Source: Nitrosospira multiformis (GTDB lineage: Bacteria; Pseudomonadota; Gammaproteobacteria; Burkholderiales; Nitrosomonadaceae). From it: a stretch of DNA of 48,107 nt. Shown piece after piece: positions 36,809 through 47,294 of the stretch. The stretch lies in NCBI GenBank assembly GCA_017306155.1, contig JAFKJB010000023.1, positions 1 to 48,107 on the forward strand. Reading direction: 5' to 3'. The position numbers and the translations under genes are program-made. A model generated the notes under the pieces. The model worked only from the letters and a program-made list of their open reading frames with translations. It was not told where the DNA came from and ran no database searches. Positions within the stretch are counted from its first letter, which is position 1. Every line of letters starts with the position of its first letter.

Positions 36809-37942
36809 ATGGAAGTTAAACGCGCCTACAAATTCCGGTTTTACCCGACGCCGCAGCAAGCGGAAGTTCTTGGTAGAACGTTCGGCTGCGCGCGTTTCGC
36901 CTACAACCACATGCTTCGCCAGCGCACTGACGCATGGTTTCAGCAAATGGAGAAGGTTAACTACAACCAGACTTCCGCGATGCTCACGGCGCTCAAGAAA
37001 ACTCCTGAGCATGCCTGGTTGAATGAGGTTTCCAGCGTCCCGGTACAGCAATCCCTGCGGCATTTGCAAACCGCTTTTTCCAACTTCTTTGCCAGGCGCG
37101 CAGGATACCCGGCATTCAAGCACAAGAACGGCGCTCAGGCGGCTGAGTACACGACCAGCGCGTTCAAATGGGACGGCAAAGCACTGAAGCTGGCGAAGAT
37201 GGACAAATCTCTGAATATCCGCTTCTCGCGCACCCTCCCGAAAGCGATTGTCGTTTCCACCGTCACAGTCAGCAAGGACACGGCCAATCGCTATTTCGTG
37301 TCCATGCTTTGCACGGATCAAGTCACTGCCAAGAACAAAGCAATCGGAAAGGTTGGCATTGACCTCGGCCTGACTCACTTTGCCATCCTCTCGACCGGAG
37401 AAAAGGTTGCTTCGCCCAACACATTCCGCAGGAATGAAAGCAGACTGGCAAAGCTGCAACGCAGGCTGGCGAAAAAACAGAAAGGCTCCGCAAACCGGCG
37501 CAAGGCCAGGTTGAAAGTAGCCCGGTTGCACGCCAGGATTGCAGATTCGCGTAGGGATTTCCTGCACAAACTTTCGACACGGCTGATAAACGAAAACCAA
37601 GTGATCGCCATTGAAAGTCTCGATGTCAGCAACATGCAGAAGAGCCGCTGCCTATCGAAGTCAATCAGCGATGCAGGCTGGTCTGAGTTCGTGCGGCAAC
37701 TTGAGTATAAGGCCAGTTGGCATGGCCGGGAACTGATTGGTATTGACCGCTGGTATCCAAGCAGCAAGCGATGTGCGGACTGCGGACATACCGCAAAGGC
37801 CATGCCTTTGAAAGCGCGCGAGTGGACGTGTTCTGAATGCGGCAGCGTCCACGACCGCGACATCAACGCAGCGCGTAACGTTTTGGCCGCCGGACTGGCG
37901 GTGTCAGCCCATGGAGAAACTGTAAGTCCTGTCTGCATGTAA
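36809..37942 (+). CDS. tnpB: IS200/IS605-family TnpB RNA-guided nuclease (solo)
   Basis: TnpB proteins are omega-RNA-guided DNA nucleases that help IS200/605 elements persist and are ancestors of Cas12. The 377-residue product is full length. The N-terminal helical part is KRAYKFRFYPTPQQAEVL. The split RuvC triad is Asp185 (GIDLGLTHFA), Glu269 (IAIESLDVSNM) and Asp351 (DRDINAARN). The zinc ribbon has Cys322, Cys325, Cys341 and Cys344. All catalytic residues are intact, so it could be active. No tnpA transposase lies nearby. Hairpins at 36774-36799 and 37982-38009 may mark the element ends; the guide RNA would be expected from the tnpB 3' end into 37943-38009. Confidence 0.93.
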   Translation: MEVKRAYKFRFYPTPQQAEVLGRTFGCARFAYNHMLRQRTDAWFQQMEKVNYNQTSAMLTALKKTPEHAWLNEVSSVPVQQSLRHLQTAFSNFFARRAGYPAFKHKNGAQAAEYTTSAFKWDGKALKLAKMDKSLNIRFSRTLPKAIVVSTVTVSKDTANRYFVSMLCTDQVTAKNKAIGKVGIDLGLTHFAILSTGEKVASPNTFRRNESRLAKLQRRLAKKQKGSANRRKARLKVARLHARIADSRRDFLHKLSTRLINENQVIAIESLDVSNMQKSRCLSKSISDAGWSEFVRQLEYKASWHGRELIGIDRWYPSSKRCADCGHTAKAMPLKAREWTCSECGSVHDRDINAARNVLAAGLAVSAHGETVSPVCM

Positions 37943-39680: not shown

Positions 39681-39756
39681 GCCCTGGTAGCTCAGTGGAT
39701 AGAGCGACCCCCTCCTAAGGGGTAGGTCACACGTTCGATTCGTGTTCAGGGCGCCA
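39681..39756 (+). tRNA. tRNA-Arg (anticodon CCT)
   Basis: The 76-nt cloverleaf has acceptor stem GCCCTGG/TCAGGGC, a D-arm with AGCTCAGTGGATAGAGC, an anticodon stem ACCCC/GGGGT with loop CTCCTAA (anticodon CCT, decoding AGG), a T-arm GTTCGATTC and an encoded CCA end. A -10-like TAAAAT lies at 39664-39669. A strong hairpin terminator follows at once. The sequence after the 3' end is the accessory island, so this tRNA is a likely integration site. Confidence 0.96.
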
Positions 39757-39801: not shown

Positions 39802-40020
39802 TAAAAAATGTAACCAATTTGTAACCACCATAGCCCCTATAAGGCTCAAGGCTGCGATATTTTTCCTTCAGGCAGCACGAGTACCTAACAGCACTTTTAA
39901 ATCGATTGTAGGGCTTCTGGTAGAGTCTTCATCTCTGCAAAAAAAAGAAAACCCGCCGAAGCGGGTTGCTTAATTGAATAAAAAAGCCTGTCCATTAGAT
40001 GGGCTTCCAGAATCCATTGG
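39802..40020. other. Island edge between tRNA-Arg and the TAC operon
   Basis: Apart from the terminator at 39938-39967, the stretch holds no gene. A short direct repeat GTAACCA occurs at 39810 and 39821 (TGTAACCAATTTGTAACCA). An integrase gene, which often sits here in tRNA-borne islands, is absent. Confidence 0.6.
39938..39967 (-). terminator. Intrinsic terminator of the toxin-antitoxin-chaperone operon
   Basis: Read on the minus strand, AACCCGC (39967-39961), TTCG loop and GCGGGTT (39956-39950) form a 7-bp stem. It is followed by a T-rich run (TTCTTTTTTTTG on the minus strand). It lies 54 nt beyond the stop of the SecB-like gene. Confidence 0.85.
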
Positions 40021-40527
40021 CTAAGTGGGGGATGGAGTTGATGTATTATTTATAATATTTTTATTTTGCTTTATATGCTCTACAAAATTTACTGTTGGCA
40101 AAACAACTCCTCCTTTCGCGCAGCGAGAAGTCATGATCAATACAATCTCTCGCATAGCACTATATAAGATGGAGCACCCATTAAAGACAACGAGATCCCG
40201 CCGGCGGTCAATTGGAACGTCCTCCGAAACTGTGAAATTTCCAATAGCTTCGACGCAAATGTCATATGGTGCAGGTTTTCCCTTTTTATTTTCTATTTTG
40301 ATTCCAAGCCTTATGACGAAGTCCCGTGGATCATCTTGTTGTTCCCGCACTTCCCCCACTTCAAGATTAGTGCCAATGGTAACCCCGACGAAGTCAAAAG
40401 AGTTAGTATCAAATTCGGCTGAAAGAGAGTGATCGACGCCGTTATCTGGTCTCTCTCTAACTTCTATTCGTGTAAAGAAGTATTGTTTAAGCTGCAATGA
40501 GCTCAACTTCATCTTTTGCTCCGCCAT
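40021..40527 (-). CDS. SecB-like chaperone of a toxin-antitoxin-chaperone module
   Basis: SecB is a tetrameric export chaperone; SecB-like paralogues in TAC modules (Mycobacterium tuberculosis Rv1957 is the model) protect the antitoxin from aggregation and degradation. The 168-residue protein shows the SecB pattern. SLQLKQYFFTRIEV is near the start, the strand-rich core DFVIRLGIKIEN is central, and the C-terminal part has FNGCSILYSAMREIVLIMTSR then LPTVNF, matching the SecB NILFPYAREVI...PVNF segment. It overlaps the antitoxin gene by 41 nt from ATG 40527, or 26 nt from ATG 40512. It is the third gene of the operon and is followed by a strong terminator. Divergent from housekeeping SecB. Confidence 0.8.
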   Translation of the reverse strand: MAEQKMKLSSLQLKQYFFTRIEVRERPDNGVDHSLSAEFDTNSFDFVGVTIGTNLEVGEVREQQDDPRDFVIRLGIKIENKKGKPAPYDICVEAIGNFTVSEDVPIDRRRDLVVFNGCSILYSAMREIVLIMTSRCAKGGVVLPTVNFVEHIKQNKNIINNTSTPSPT

Positions 40528-40903
40528 TAACAGGGAAAGCTTTGAAATAATCTCCTATATGCCCCTCTTGAGCTGACTGCTTGCTGACAGTAAATGAACT
40601 CTCATATTTTTTGGTTTTATAATTTTCTTTTTTCCTTTCGTTCGTCTCAATAGAAATATTGAGATCTCCACCTACAGCATGCACAAGCTTCACCATAGTT
40701 TCGATAGTGAGGTTAGTGTCTCCGGCCATTATTTTACTTATATAGGCTGGACTGCGATTGATGCTTCTCGCCAGATCAGCGAATTTCATTTCACGTTTTT
40801 GCAACAATCGGTTAAGTTCTATTACAAAACTTAGCTTTGCGGCTTCAATCAAATAATCATCTTGCTGCTCCGCTTGCCTTACAACATCAGTAAAACTTTT
40901 CAT
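40487..40903 (-). CDS. higA: HigA-like XRE antitoxin with C-terminal extension
   Basis: A 138-residue protein. A Cro/C1-type helix-turn-helix (about 38-80: MKFADLARSINRSPAYISKIMAGDTNLTIETM, positions 39-70) is the expected antitoxin and operator-binding part. The remaining residues (about 90-138) form a polar, probably flexible tail with hydrophobic HIGDYFKAFPV. In SecB-dependent TAC systems a tail of this sort (the chaperone-addiction region) makes the antitoxin depend on the chaperone; that role here is inferred from context. It starts by ATGA overlap with the toxin stop and ends inside the chaperone gene, so all three are translationally coupled. Confidence 0.82.
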   Translation of the reverse strand: MKSFTDVVRQAEQQDDYLIEAAKLSFVIELNRLLQKREMKFADLARSINRSPAYISKIMAGDTNLTIETMVKLVHAVGGDLNISIETNERKKENYKTKKYESSFTVSKQSAQEGHIGDYFKAFPVNGGAKDEVELIAA

Positions 40904-41352
40904 GGCAACTTCCTCCTGTCAGACGTCTGGATACACCCCGCTTGAACATCTGCTAAGTACATATTCCGTAATTCAATTAACCGTTTTCTATCTTCCTTGC
41001 TTGTTTTCGGATGCCTTTTCTCGATTCCATACGCACAGATGATTATTTTCTCACCCACGCCGTAGAACCAGTAAAGACGAAGAGACATTTTCCTGAACTC
41101 ATATACCTGTTGCCCACTAATAGCTTCGTGACAATAGGGTGTCCCTTTCAACGCCATCGGGCCGCTGATTTCGTACTGTAAACGCTTAATTACTGCTATT
41201 AGCGCTGAGGCAGCTTTATGTTCCTGTGTTTTCTCTGGGAAGCTGCTTAAAAATTCCAACAACTCACACTGATCATTATTCCTACCAATAGCAAAGAATT
41301 GCCATATAGGCTTCCTAGCATCTTGTTCATCACGAAGCGGGAATAGAATCAC
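40900..41352 (-). CDS. higB: HigB-like (RelE-superfamily, phage Gp49-type) toxin
   Basis: First gene of the three-gene operon, 150 residues. The C-terminal half has the RelE/HigB-type strand pattern: QQVYEFRKMSLRLYWFYGVGEKIIICAYGIEKRHPKTSKEDRKR. This includes ELR-like EFRKM, RLYWFY, the IEKRHPKT segment seen in Gp49-like toxins (usually KKTPKTP-type) and following basic residues. Such toxins cleave mRNA on the ribosome. The start is GTG 41352 without a good ribosome site, which would favour low toxin output. Toxin-before-antitoxin order is that of higBA and of the mycobacterial TAC operon. Confidence 0.78.
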   Translation of the reverse strand: MILFPLRDEQDARKPIWQFFAIGRNNDQCELLEFLSSFPEKTQEHKAASALIAVIKRLQYEISGPMALKGTPYCHEAISGQQVYEFRKMSLRLYWFYGVGEKIIICAYGIEKRHPKTSKEDRKRLIELRNMYLADVQAGCIQTSDRRKLP

Positions 41353-41362
41353 AAAGGGGAAC

Positions 41363-41378
41363 TTAACTTATAGGTTAA
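41363..41378. promoter_or_regulatory. Probable HigA operator overlapping the operon promoter
   Basis: TTAAC-TTATAG-GTTAA is a 16-bp inverted repeat with 5-bp arms, 11-26 bp upstream of the toxin GTG. On the minus strand TTGACT (41393-41388) is a -35-like hexamer, and TATAAG (41372-41367, 15-bp spacer) or TAAGTT (41370-41365, 17-bp spacer) could be the -10 inside the repeat. Antitoxin binding here would block the promoter, the usual autoregulation. Confidence 0.6.
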
Positions 41379-41549: not shown

Positions 41550-41969
41550 TTATTTGCCCTCATCCCATGGCCTGGCTCCAGATGCCTTGTTGGCCATTAC
41601 AGCAGCAGTCGCCGCGGTATAGCGGGATTGCTGGGTAAGTCTCAGTTTCGTGGCAAAGGTCTGAATCAAGCGCGCCTGGCGCTCGATCATTCCATGAAGC
41701 CTGTTGAGGGTCTTTAAATCTCCATCTCCATCAACCAGCTCTGCCTCGAGCGAATCGGCCTGCGAAGTTAAGAATTCATGCGAGGCGATCGATTTCACGT
41801 ATCCGCAAAGCAGTGGGGCATTTGCTCGATCAAACCAGGCTGCAGGTTTTGACAGTACGATCTCCTTCCATAATTCTTTCTGTCTGGCAGTTAGGGTTGT
41901 AGGCGGGGATAGGAGCGTGGCAACGTGAGGGGGAACAATGGAAAGACTTGCAGATGATTTCTTAGCCAT
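41550..41969 (-). CDS. Phage terminase small-subunit-like protein (P27 family)
   Basis: A 139-residue protein resembling P27-type terminase small subunits, which bind phage DNA for packaging. Visible family-like pieces are LTARQKELWKEIV near the start, FDRANAPLLCGYVKS, and LNRLHGMIERQARLIQTFATKLRLTQQSRYTAATA toward the end, closing ARPWDEGK. No large terminase, portal or capsid gene is nearby, so this is an orphan prophage remnant. The call is from pattern only. Confidence 0.65.
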   Translation of the reverse strand: MAKKSSASLSIVPPHVATLLSPPTTLTARQKELWKEIVLSKPAAWFDRANAPLLCGYVKSIASHEFLTSQADSLEAELVDGDGDLKTLNRLHGMIERQARLIQTFATKLRLTQQSRYTAATAAVMANKASGARPWDEGK

Positions 41970-42316: not shown

Positions 42317-42749
42317 TCTGCAGCCGGTTGAAATACTGGTTTTCGAACTCTACCGGAGAAACACTGTTCGCATAACCATGACGTCGTTTCGAGTTGTAGA
42401 ACATTTCGATGTAGTTAAAGACATCACGCCGGGCTTCTTCCCGGTCGAGATAGATTTTGCGGCGGATTCGCTCCCGTTTTAGCAGTTGGAAGAAACTCTC
42501 GGCCACTGCATTGTCGTAGCAATTTCCCCGGCGGCTCATGCTGCCAATCATGGCTGCCATATTGGCTCCCCTGGTCAGAATGAACGATCAACGGAGTCTT
42601 CGGTTGCCGCCGTGACACGGCCGGAAGCCAAGGCGTTGATTGCCAGTTCGCTATCGATCCGGGAACGCATGGACCAACCGACCACCTGACGCGAGAACAA
42701 GTCGAGGACGACCGCTAGATACAGCCAGCCTTCGCGCGTTGGAAGTGGA

Positions 42750-45024
42750 GTAAGAGACAGGGCGTAGTCGAACTATCTCCCTGCCTCTCCTCCCCGAACC
42801 GGACATGCACCTCTCAGCGCATCCGGCTCTCCGTTCAAGCGTTGCTCATAGCGAAGGCGACATCGGCATAGCGCGACTTGATGGTGCGGCGTGTCTCGCT
42901 ACGCATGATGTACGGATTTTCCGAAGGCGAGCGCCATGTAAAGCGGCCCTTGCGGCTGGTTACGAGACGCCGAAGCGCCACCGTCCCATACCAACCTCGA
43001 CTATTCTGGCCTTGAAGTACCCATGTTCTGGCCTGCCCCGGCTCCGGTGCCCGGATATGGTCGCGCATCAGCGACCTGAAGCCGCGCCGGTACTTGCGCG
43101 CGAGCCAGTATCCGAGTTTCCAGAAAACGGTACGGTCCAGCCTGCCAAACAGGGTCGCCGTGTAGTCGGTATATTGATAGAAGGCGGCCCAGCCGGCAAG
43201 TTGCCGATTCAGGCTTTCCACCAGATCCATCCGGTTCATGCTGTAATTACCTGACAGTTGTTTGACCAACCGCCCGGCGAAGCCCCGATACTTCTCCCAC
43301 GGAATGGTCGTCACAGGCCGCATGCGGCCGCGTGGTCCACGCTTGCGGATAACACGGTGACCAAGAAAGGCGAAGCCGTCGTTCACATGCGTTATATGGG
43401 TCTTCTCCATATTCAGCGTGAGCTTCAACTCGCCTTCAAGGAATTCTCTGCACCCCTCACGTACTGCTTCGGCATGTGCCCGAGTACCCTTGACCACGAT
43501 CACAAAGTCATCTGCATACCGACAGTAGGAGATAGCTGGTTTCCACTGCCGGCTTTCTCGCACAGTAATGGGACGCTGCTTGAGAATTGCGAAGTTCCAC
43601 GCCCACCGATCCTTCCGCACTTTCCTGCTCAGGTAGTTCTTCTCCATCCACGCATCAAATTCGTGCAGCATGATGTTGGATAGCAGCGGCGAGATGACGC
43701 CGCCTTGAGGAACGCCTTCGCTGGCTGCACGAAACAGATCGCGATCTACACACCCTGCCTTGATGAACCTCCAGAGCAGGGCAAGGAAGCGCTGGTCGGC
43801 GATCCGCTTGCGGATTCCCTTCATTAGCAGACGATGATGAACCGTGTCGAAGTAGCTGGCGAGATCACCCTCGATAACCCAGCGTCCGGCAGTACTGCGC
43901 TCATCGCCGTCCTGTAGTTGAAGCTTCACCGTGCGAATTGCGTGGTGCACGCTACGGGCAGGTCTGAAGCCGTACGAAGCCGGATGGAAATCACTCTCCC
44001 AGACCGGCTCCATCGCCATCAGCATTGCCCGCTGCACGATCCGATCCCGCAGACTCGGGATGCCAAGTGGTCTGAGCTTGCCGTTTGCTTTCGGTATGTA
44101 CACGCGTCGCGCAGGCAGCGGACTATAGGAGCCCGCCAGCAACTCTTCGCGTATCGTGGCCAGTTCATGCTGGAGATTCGCTTCCAGTATGCGCTTGTCA
44201 ACACCATCCACCCCCGGCGTGCGGGCTCCGCTGGAGGCCAGCGTAATGCGAGCCGCTTCGCTCAGCCAGTCCCTGCCGGCAATCAGTCTCAGGAGTCGAT
44301 CGAACCTGCGCTCTTTGTTCTCCGTCGACCATATCGCCAGTTTGCTTTGCATTTCACTGATTATCAAAGGTCTTCACCTCACTGTGGTCAGTTAATCAAC
44401 CCAGCAAACCACTTCAACTGCCTCCCTTCGCCATGTGGCCGGCTTTCCCGGCCTCGGACTACTACGGAGGCTCCGTCAGCTTGCACATCATCGGGGACTC
44501 ACTCCCTTGGCATCTGTGCAAGCCTTCCCCAGTTCACATGCTGGACTCAACGCATGGGCGAGGCTGCCTGTCGCAGTCTTTATCCTTGCTTTCCGCAAGT
44601 CGTCGCAAACACCACGGTCTAGCTGCGCGCTTCCATGGTTCCCTGCTGCCCGGCCTACATGTCCAGACAGCATTCGTGCCGCCAGACCATACGTGTGTGT
44701 CCGGCGTCAGTCCACGTCCTGCCTATTAAGCGGTGTAGGCAGGGGTGACATTTCAACTCTCAGATGCGTTCAAACAGGTTCGTGTTCCTCAACCGTCCCA
44801 TGCTCAGCCTGGAGGCTCATCTTGGCGTAACCGCTTCGCCGCAAGCCCCGTTTCCCACGGACTTCGTCACCTTGCCAGTGCCGGCAAGTCACCGCCGCTT
44901 CGGCTCACTTCCTCTCGCAGCAGAGAAAGGGCAGGCTCGTTACTGCAACTTCCCCGAGCGCTGCATTCCACACATGCTCAAGCAGCTTCACCCCATGCAT
45001 GCGGGCTACGTTGGCTGGGCGTAC
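42750..45024 (-). mobile_element. Group II intron with reverse transcriptase, inserted in orfB
   Basis: A ribozyme-type retroelement of about 2.28 kb. The 34-nt domain V hairpin is visible on the minus strand at 42829-42796 (begins GAGCCGGATGCG, ends TGTCCGGTTC), directly after the reverse transcriptase stop. A domain VI-like stem follows. The 5' end is placed at about 45024 (GTACG on the minus strand), right after the ITY codons of orfB. The 3' end is at about 42750, where the transposase frame resumes. The 650 nt before the protein would hold domain I-III. Boundaries are good to a few bases only. Confidence 0.8.
42835..44367 (-). CDS. ltrA: Group II intron-encoded reverse transcriptase/maturase
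   Basis: Intron-encoded protein of 510 residues that splices and copies the intron. RT motifs are in order: TPGVDGVDK (50-58), RRVYIPKANGKLRPLGIPSLRDRIVQ (87-112), FDTVHHRLL, EGVPQGGVISPLLSNIMLHEFD, and the catalytic YADD at 284-287. A maturase X-domain follows (NRQLAGWAAFYQYTDYTATL). The C-terminus has no HNH endonuclease cysteines, so this is an En-minus type. No frameshift is seen, so the protein may be functional. Confidence 0.94.
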   Translation of the reverse strand: MIISEMQSKLAIWSTENKERRFDRLLRLIAGRDWLSEAARITLASSGARTPGVDGVDKRILEANLQHELATIREELLAGSYSPLPARRVYIPKANGKLRPLGIPSLRDRIVQRAMLMAMEPVWESDFHPASYGFRPARSVHHAIRTVKLQLQDGDERSTAGRWVIEGDLASYFDTVHHRLLMKGIRKRIADQRFLALLWRFIKAGCVDRDLFRAASEGVPQGGVISPLLSNIMLHEFDAWMEKNYLSRKVRKDRWAWNFAILKQRPITVRESRQWKPAISYCRYADDFVIVVKGTRAHAEAVREGCREFLEGELKLTLNMEKTHITHVNDGFAFLGHRVIRKRGPRGRMRPVTTIPWEKYRGFAGRLVKQLSGNYSMNRMDLVESLNRQLAGWAAFYQYTDYTATLFGRLDRTVFWKLGYWLARKYRRGFRSLMRDHIRAPEPGQARTWVLQGQNSRGWYGTVALRRLVTSRKGRFTWRSPSENPYIMRSETRRTIKSRYADVAFAMSNA

Positions 45025-46250: not shown

Positions 46251-47294
46251 CTATTCATAAAACTGCTTTTTGGATAAAACAATCCATTCTTGAAGAACTA
46301 AATAAATTGCTTGAAGAGTCATCACAAAAACCATCAAGCCAGCGACATAAAATAAGGATGAGACTAAACTCGATTCTTCTTCCCATAATTGAACTAGGGA
46401 GTATATAAAACCTAGCAGCAGGGGTAACGTAAATAACAAGATCACGAAAGTTCTACAAATTTTATGGATCGTTCTATTGATTTTAGAATTTTTAATTTCA
46501 TCTTTCCTTGATTTGATCAACTGTAGTTCTCTGTGAATCTTAAAATTCACTGGTAGAGCATTTAATACATGTGGAAATGCCAGCTTATAGTCCTCTAGGT
46601 TAGCGATCATGACTAACTCGCGTTGGCGAGTCATATACAAGGCTCCAAGCCATCCTACAATCAGGGGTGCTAGAGCAATTGCTACTGCGCTAGACAAAAA
46701 CCCGAAGGGAAATTTGTAATCTAATCCAGCATATTGCACCTGCAGTATACGTGGCGTTTGAATTCCCCATACGGTCGTCGGGGCATCTTCAAGGGTCTTT
46801 AATTGTTGCCTGAGAGACAAGATCAGTTCGTTTGGTTGTTTGGTCGAATCGACATACCTTGCAAAATCTAATCGGTGAGCCAAGTGTTTTTCTCCAAGCT
46901 CGTTAACTATCTGTTCTAAAGCTTCCTTGTATGTGGTGATTTTCGGAGATACCTCAGGTGAATTCGGGAATGGTCGCGGAGGCAAACCAAGCAATTTGCG
47001 AGTTTGGTCTACAGTTATTTCCTTCTGCCTAGTTTTCGCATTATTTGGGACGGGAGAAGTATTTAACTCTGATTTGGCTTGAAACAAGTCGGCCAAGCGG
47101 GATTCTTCTGATTCTAGCCGTTTTAAAAGACCGGCGATCGTACTTACAGAATGGTCTTCAAGAAACTGTTTATTCGCTGTCGTTAAGTAGGCTTCGACGA
47201 AGCACAGAACAACAAGCAAAATTCCACCCAAAAAAAGACGCTCTACTCGACGACCCAGGAAGAAAAGCGCGTCGATATTCGGTTTGCCAGCCAT
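46251..47294 (-). CDS. Hypothetical membrane protein
   Basis: A 347-residue protein I do not recognise. Predicted membrane segments are near 18-35 (LFLGGILLVVLCFVEAYL), 195-220 (FPFGFLSSAVAIALAPLIVGWL), 285-308 (TFVILLFTLPLLLGFIYSLV) and 315-340. Between the first and second is a long soluble, charged region (about 36-190), probably periplasmic. Another soluble stretch (about 222-280) is basic and probably cytoplasmic. It is complete and not frameshifted. The 256 bp upstream (47295-47550) hold no gene that I can see. Confidence 0.6.
   Translation of the reverse strand: MAGKPNIDALFFLGRRVERLFLGGILLVVLCFVEAYLTTANKQFLEDHSVSTIAGLLKRLESEESRLADLFQAKSELNTSPVPNNAKTRQKEITVDQTRKLLGLPPRPFPNSPEVSPKITTYKEALEQIVNELGEKHLAHRLDFARYVDSTKQPNELILSLRQQLKTLEDAPTTVWGIQTPRILQVQYAGLDYKFPFGFLSSAVAIALAPLIVGWLGALYMTRQRELVMIANLEDYKLAFPHVLNALPVNFKIHRELQLIKSRKDEIKNSKINRTIHKICRTFVILLFTLPLLLGFIYSLVQLWEEESSLVSSLFYVAGLMVFVMTLQAIYLVLQEWIVLSKKQFYE

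Follow-up and report, generated by a model that had tools for sequence, protein, structure and literature searches.

A probable HigBAC-type toxin-antitoxin-chaperone operon beside a tRNA-Arg gene of Nitrosospira multiformis

Toxin-antitoxin-chaperone (TAC) modules have recently been recognised as phage sensors, and the manner in which an antitoxin becomes, and remains, addicted to its chaperone is a question of importance. The locus described here raises it in a particular form. Within a stretch of 48,107 nucleotides from Nitrosospira multiformis (contig JAFKJB010000023.1; hereafter the window), a set of minus-strand reading frames lies between a gene for a phage terminase small subunit and a tRNA-Arg gene. 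A preliminary description made from the sequence had read these frames as a toxin, an antitoxin and a SecB-like chaperone. Are the three proteins what they were taken to be, what would such a module do at this site, and why does the antitoxin frame end within the first codons of the chaperone gene? On the evidence presented below, the module is very probably a HigBAC-type TAC operon in which the chaperone would guard the antitoxin, and abortive phage defence is its likeliest role. TACs of this kind are already known, and the window provides a further example.

Operon layout and the three encoded proteins

The features of the locus are listed in Table 1. As had been described, the toxin, antitoxin and chaperone frames are intact, co-oriented and mutually overlapping, and they form a three-gene operon. 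The toxin stop and the antitoxin start share four nucleotides (ATGA). A ribosome-binding site, AGGAGG, lies 8 nt 5' of the antitoxin ATG, and no clear site was seen before the GTG start of the toxin. The chaperone frame opens with an ATG at 40527, but the second ATG, at 40512, is preceded by GGCGGAG at 6 nt, and the N-terminus that it yields, MKLSSLQLKQYFFTRI, aligns with those of relatives such as MSQTPLRLEHYFFTRV. On the basis of this spacing and of the fit with the family alignment, position 40512 is most likely the true start, so that the protein has 163 residues and its gene shares 26 nt with that of the antitoxin. The operon is followed by a single good terminator, again as described. 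The single operator that had been postulated fared less well: a scan of the intergenic region for consensus promoters found none, and the one candidate palindrome was equalled in 87 of 1000 shuffled sequences.

Table 1 Features of the module and its immediate surroundings (positions in the window)
Feature	Position	Strand	Remarks
tRNA-Arg(CCT)	39681..39756	+	islands of the genus attach here
Intrinsic terminator	39950..39967	-	3' of the chaperone gene
SecB-like TAC chaperone gene	40021..40512	-	163 aa from the second ATG
Antitoxin/chaperone overlap	40487..40512	-	26 nt; antitoxin Ala-Ala-stop is chaperone L6-Q7-L8-K9 in another frame
higA-like XRE antitoxin gene	40487..40903	-	138 aa, ends ELIAA; helix-turn-helix spanning roughly residues 30-82, C-terminal tail of some 50 residues
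higB-like toxin gene	40900..41352	-	150 aa, GTG start; modelled RelE/HigB (Gp49-type) fold; predicted ribosome-dependent RNase
Imperfect 16-bp palindrome	41363..41378	.	7/8 pairs; weak operator candidate
Phage terminase small subunit gene	41550..41969	-	139 aa; phrog_12559, E=5.9e-21; 197 bp upstream of the toxin gene, same strand

The toxin sequence by itself matched nothing in Pfam or NCBIfam and gave no useful match in the PDB. Indeed, PF05973 (Gp49) is matched by four of five aligned toxins, that of the window being the exception. A profile of the five retrieved the HigB structure 6af3 with E=8.9e-6. The AlphaFold model of the toxin (pLDDT 93.0) matched Streptococcus pneumoniae HigB in a Foldseek search (6af4, E=2.5e-6) and, more weakly, Mycobacterium tuberculosis HigB1 (7nbu, E=1.2e-3). 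The toxin as modelled has the HigB/RelE fold expected of a HigBAC-type TAC, in keeping with its first description as HigB/RelE-like. Residues G64, R92 and K112 are retained and are invariant in all 42 aligned relatives, and F96, likewise retained, is present in 41 of these 42, near-duplicates being included in both counts. In the model K112 is positioned between the strand formed by residues 103-111 and the last helix. The available portion of a study of HigB-TAC places K95 and other catalytic residues in the region between a strand and the last helix (PMC9098466), and the surroundings of K112 may be the equivalent region. The loop EKRHPKTSKED deviates from the family consensus, which resembles KK-x-QKTP, and the activity of the toxin is therefore uncertain.

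The chaperone is a remote relative of SecB. Its Pfam score against the SecB family (PF02556; E=0.0012, 19.1 bits) falls below the cutoff of 26 bits, so that by this test it is a divergent member at best, and six of ten aligned chaperones match the same family at E<=0.1. The sequence alone gave no useful match in the PDB. A profile of 10 homologues reached Haemophilus influenzae SecB (1fx3) at E=4.2e-5 and Escherichia coli SecB at E of about 8e-4, and its match to Rv1957 of M. tuberculosis was not significant (E=0.92); in the alignment underlying the first chaperone profile, two rows (L004 and L009) were truncated at points other than a start codon. The AlphaFold model, calculated for a single chain and with uncertain loops, has a pLDDT of 79.8. 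With Foldseek it matched SecB (E=2.2e-5), from both E. coli and H. influenzae, and Rv1957 (E=9.3e-5), and together these two account for 17 of 18 hits with E<=0.001, with moderate TM-scores (0.42-0.59 by query). Profile and model together argue for a SecB fold and for profile-level homology to SecB. The SecB-like protein of the preliminary description, whose account depended on such a fold, is thereby upheld. The sequence also matched the PADLOC model PD-T4-9_C (E=1.7e-5). Canonical export SecB was considered as its identity and rejected: the host genome encodes a separate canonical SecB elsewhere (E=1.4e-57), and the divergent copy is therefore probably not an export chaperone. The longer frame, 40021-40527, additionally matches phrog_21664, a phage family of unknown function, with E=6.7e-12.

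Recurrence of the operon and the end of the antitoxin

A scan of genome contigs with an alignment of the antitoxin yielded 53 loci. A SecB gene lies directly 3' of the antitoxin homologue in 40 of them, which speaks against a chance juxtaposition of the three genes; 12 have none, and in one the contig ends too early. Since the search was made with the antitoxin, the SecB-less loci became available as a comparison group. An iterated SecB profile found no SecB among their same-strand reading frames within 900 bp downstream. A toxin match lies upstream in all 40 SecB loci; it spans at least 81 residues in 39 of them and 55 residues in the remaining one, L037. Four of the 40 operons (those of genomes G262, G314, G327 and G420) had served to build the profiles, and 36 are independent of them. 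The hosts of the 53 loci, as labelled, are gamma-, beta- and delta-type proteobacteria with a few members of other phyla, and two loci (L019 and L037) are labelled Nitrosomonas. At L037 (2079-3383, N. nitrosa) the antitoxin and SecB frames are open and the toxin-like frame comprises only 55 residues. When the pairwise distances of toxin, antitoxin and chaperone are set against one another, r is 0.69-0.76 for 37 operons and 0.40-0.62 for the 29 left after thinning, with none of 2000 permutations reaching any of these values, in a calculation that ignores species phylogeny.

Among 60 sampled relatives no chaperone was found at E<=0.001, and the module is thus not conserved in its lineage. Across 369 genomes of the class, the host's own included, the chaperone was matched in seven and the toxin in six, and the two coincide in the host, G262, G314 and G327; G420 also carries the operon, its chaperone having first been recognised by eye. 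No chaperone relative was found on viral contigs, no toxin or antitoxin match in the plasmid collection, and no match of chaperone or antitoxin by tblastn in the phage collection. The preliminary description had seen novelty in the occurrence of this gene order in a different bacterial group. That part does not stand, inasmuch as TACs of the HigA, MqsA and HicB types have already been described across bacteria (PMC5105189, PMC4257090).

The antitoxin matches HTH_3 with E=1.3e-5, and the chain continues beyond residue 82 or so as a tail of roughly 50 residues, as had been noted. A helix-turn-helix antitoxin with such a C-terminal extension is what a HigBAC-type TAC would contain. The tails of 41 TAC antitoxins were compared with those of 13 SecB-less antitoxins. 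Removal of near-duplicates by the last 35 residues (L034, L048, L050, L060 and L061) left 36 of the former; L043, in which the contig ends inside the antitoxin, was left out of the counts, and L068, with two antitoxins, contributes one to each group. Tryptophan occurs within the last 35 residues of 24/36 TAC antitoxins versus 1/13 of the SecB-less relatives. The chain ends in Ala-Ala in 20/36 versus 1/13, and an alanine is found within the last two positions in 30/36 versus 3/13. In control sets, Ala-Ala ends were observed in 3/144 neighbouring reading frames of at least 150 residues (mechanically called), 0/51 toxins and 0/40 SecBs. The Ala-Ala contrast is weaker when the comparison is confined to the eight SecB-less relatives with a toxin (p=0.03), and these statistics, like those on the overlap given below, ignore shared ancestry. 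The earlier proposal that the tail acts as a chaperone-addiction region is thus borne out in part: tryptophan and alanine-rich ends are common with SecB and rare without it, and this comparison supports a putative addiction region, but the window's own tail has no tryptophan, only an aromatic stretch (DYFKAF).

The Ala-Ala end is predicted to be a ClpX-type degron. The idea of a degron in TAC antitoxins is not new, and the count of Ala-Ala ends is what the present analysis adds. According to the text available, the degron of M. tuberculosis HigA1 is Val-Ala and lies within the addiction region (PMC8165232), and CmdA, which ends in LAA, is degraded via ClpP once a phage capsid protein occupies the chaperone (PMC11618068).

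A plain degron signal does not account for the Ala-Ala ends by itself, for part of the signal proved to be shared with the chaperone frame. In 34 of the 37 operons retrieved, with start positions assigned by script, the antitoxin and chaperone frames overlap. A count after thinning, from which L020, L065 and the TAC antitoxin of L068 are absent, places the antitoxin stop at a single codon of the chaperone alignment, with identical phase, in 17/33 operons, that of the window among them. Twelve of these 17 antitoxins end in Ala-Ala, and the letters of Ala-Ala-stop also spell L-[R/Q]-L-[E/K/D] of the chaperone. The Ala-Ala end of the window's antitoxin is therefore not independent of the chaperone sequence, and it could be argued that the end is a by-product of the overlap with a conserved chaperone start and no degron. 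Codon usage tells against this. Both chaperone codons at this place end in G in 13/17 overlapping operons versus 1/17 others, with about 1.3 expected from their own codon usage. Part of the contrast reflects amino acid choice, as 8/17 of the other operons have isoleucine at the first position. A comparison restricted to leucine at that position was added because the first test mixed codon choice with amino acid choice, and there the codon ends in G in 15/15 overlapping versus 0/7 other operons. Moreover, where the stop lies elsewhere, 6/16 antitoxins still end in Ala-Ala (p=2.7e-5 against the 3/144 of the neighbours, p=0.074 against the SecB-less relatives). On these grounds the by-product explanation is unlikely. 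The preference for G-ending codons favours selection on the antitoxin end, with the caveats that the operons share ancestry and that both codon tests are post hoc, having been designed after the overlap was seen.

We put forward, as a tentative proposal that stands somewhat below an even chance, that in one group of HigBAC-type operons, the window's included, a protease tag of the antitoxin is written in another frame inside the first codons of the chaperone and is kept there by selection on the chaperone codons. The tag could not then be lost without touching the gene of its protector, and the addiction to the chaperone would, if this is true, be locked genetically. In the window the result would be a phage alarm that a mobile island carries next to a packaging gene. 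A literature search on gene overlap, degrons and SecB-like antitoxin chaperones revealed no report of such an overlap, as judged by titles.

The value of the module lies in this overlap of degron and chaperone codons, which can be addressed by simple codon changes, and in a natural comparison set: its group offers many HigBAC-like variants with a predicted degron together with related SecB-less antitoxins.

The island at the tRNA-Arg gene

The module lies between the terminase small subunit gene and the tRNA-Arg gene. The former, recognised by its PHROG family, has a weak match to NCBIfam sm_term_P27 (E=0.054) and none in Pfam. To the left of the module, an MFS gene and the tRNA-Arg(CCT) gene are conserved in the genomes compared, and in five of five relatives similarity at this locus ends 0-15 bp past the 3' end of the tRNA. 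Of eight further stretches, six show the same limit, whereas in the other two the similarity extends to about 70 bp beyond the tRNA. Synteny with genomes labelled Nitrosomonas also suggests that the host is a nitrosomonad. The module had been called tRNA-associated, and for this junction the term is apt. Of 22 other genomes of the genus, eight contain a second copy of the last 45-46 bases of the tRNA, and in six of these eight the two copies share a contig and are 4.6-42 kb apart. No second copy was found in the window's own genome, and the presumed far end of the island bears only a degenerate trace of the attachment repeat.

Genome G007 has other genes at the tRNA site, one of which is found, with its surrounding DNA, on contig C29 of the window's genome. 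The final 144 bases of the window recur as the beginning of contig C29, whose similarity to G007 resumes at base 1248. The shared 144 bases look IS-derived, and a join between the right end of the window and C29 is therefore likely, short of proof. If it is right, the island measures about 9.4 kb. Seven of its reading frames outside the IS-like pieces were scanned, five of them from the window and two from the initial 1.2 kb of C29, and no integrase was found among them. The reading frames on C29 resemble a DUF927-type helicase by eye, and Pfam did not support this assignment. A full phage-inducible chromosomal island (PICI) was likewise considered and rejected: the scanned frames include no integrase, regulator or replication module, and there is no second attachment copy. 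The partly assembled island does carry terS. PICIs are reported to include terS in some cases and to have room for accessory genes at the end of the element (PMC6092414).

Several other elements were observed in the window. Between 42306 and 45705 a group II intron with a reverse transcriptase (42835-44367; Rfam match at 42745-42831) apparently lies inside an IS3-like transposase, pieces of which, identified as IS3 by eye, flank it. A 347-residue reading frame of the island (46251-47294) could not be placed convincingly in any Pfam, NCBIfam or PHROGs family. Outside the module on the other side, a TnpB-like transposon gene of 377 residues (36809-37942) was recognised by eye only.

Four stretches between tRNA repeats were read in relatives, three of them (L113, L114 and L115) being scanned in part and the fourth, L116, left out of the scan. 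At the tRNA-Arg site L114 holds a type I restriction system with an integrase, L115 a GmrSD-like gene with an integrase, and L113 an SNF2 helicase and a terminase small subunit. In genome G012 this tRNA-Arg is followed by a reverse transcriptase gene (L071:22-969; RVT_1, E=9.3e-23), which is, by eye, possibly retron-like.

Role of the module and related systems

The proposed mechanism is as follows. The chaperone would bind the antitoxin tail, let the antitoxin fold and hide its C-terminal degron from ClpXP; the antitoxin would in turn hold the toxin and repress the operon. A better chaperone substrate, for which a freshly synthesised structural protein of a phage is the likeliest candidate, would release the tail. 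The freed antitoxin would then be degraded and the toxin would cut mRNA on ribosomes, so that growth stops. Phage defence and island stabilisation had both been suggested as roles, and either may be envisaged. Because the module is carried by a tRNA-Arg island and lies beside a phage packaging gene, phage-triggered abortive infection, possibly to the benefit of the island itself, seems the likeliest.

The same parts might instead form a working TAC that stabilises the island or confers stress tolerance, the toxin being freed by loss of the island or by unfolded proteins that divert the chaperone. The location at a tRNA attachment site is consistent with this, and release under stress has been proposed for the M. 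tuberculosis TAC in the accessible part of PMC8165232. The precedents among related systems point the other way: for E. coli HigBAC the reported trigger is the lambda major tail protein (PMC11980606, PMC12593503), for CmdTAC it is the T4 capsid protein (PMC11618068), and MqsRAC has been reported to give protection against T2 (PMC9519451). The type I restriction, GmrSD-like and reverse transcriptase genes at the same tRNA site in relatives also suit defence better, as do the neighbours of TAC operons elsewhere. When 97 neighbouring reading frames of 35 operons were scanned with PADLOC, the 25 commonest of 148 families included restriction genes of types I and IIG, a methyltransferase of the DrmMI type and the BREX genes BrxL and PglZ, with one or two matches each. 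Ordinary metabolic genes are also common among the neighbours. These scans cover the 25 commonest of 99, 148 and 87 families, with families not tied to individual neighbours, and since there was no control set, no enrichment of defence genes is claimed. Stabilisation or stress tolerance is a possibility of some substance, then, if a doubtful one.

Less probable still is that the island is a remnant and the module its decaying, no longer functional cargo, the toxin being weakened and retained only on account of the repression that the antitoxin still exerts. Such a history would agree with the scanned island frames, which include no integrase, with the IS3-like element split by an intron, with a second attachment repeat of which only a degenerate trace was seen, at the presumed far end, and with the deviating toxin loop. 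Yet all three frames are intact, the antitoxin and chaperone genes have good translation signals, and the toxin keeps the residues that are invariant in its 42 relatives in a model of high pLDDT. Abortive phage defence by a chaperone-guarded antitoxin accordingly remains the reading that we prefer.

A HigBAC of E. coli C496 was reportedly described by Mets et al. in 2024. Like the window's module, it combines a HigB RNase toxin, a HigA antitoxin and a SecB-like chaperone, HigC, in the accounts available (PMC11980606, PMC12593503). The window's copy differs in its location on a tRNA-Arg island, and the likeness is drawn from descriptions, not sequences. With the HigB1-HigA1-Rv1957 operon of M. 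tuberculosis the window shares the gene order, and the SecB fold (5mtw) and the HigB1 fold (7nbu) are both matched by the models. This likeness is one of structure only, the identities in the Foldseek alignments being 16% for the chaperone and 15% for the toxin. HigA1, as far as the available text of PMC8165232 shows, likewise has a tail with a C-terminal ClpX-type end, but the Trp-containing addiction motif given for it in the accessible part of PMC5105189 is absent from the window's tail. CmdTAC (PD-T4-9) of E. coli also has a SecB-like chaperone and an Ala-Ala-ended antitoxin, in the part available of PMC11618068. Its toxin is an RNA ADP-ribosyltransferase, whereas that of the window is of the HigB type, with a HigB fold in the model, and CmdTAC was rejected as the identity of the module.

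The only two relatives of the chaperone in the plasmid collection, with 36.7% and 32.0% identity, belong to MqsA-SecB operons on plasmids of Thiodictyon (L014) and Cupriavidus (L015). In each the SecB gene lies downstream of an annotated MqsA antitoxin, which is of another family than the window's, and the gene before the antitoxin is annotated as hypothetical. On the Thiodictyon plasmid (L014:4331-9037) the annotated MqsA-type antitoxin and SecB are positioned directly upstream of the DISARM gene drmA.
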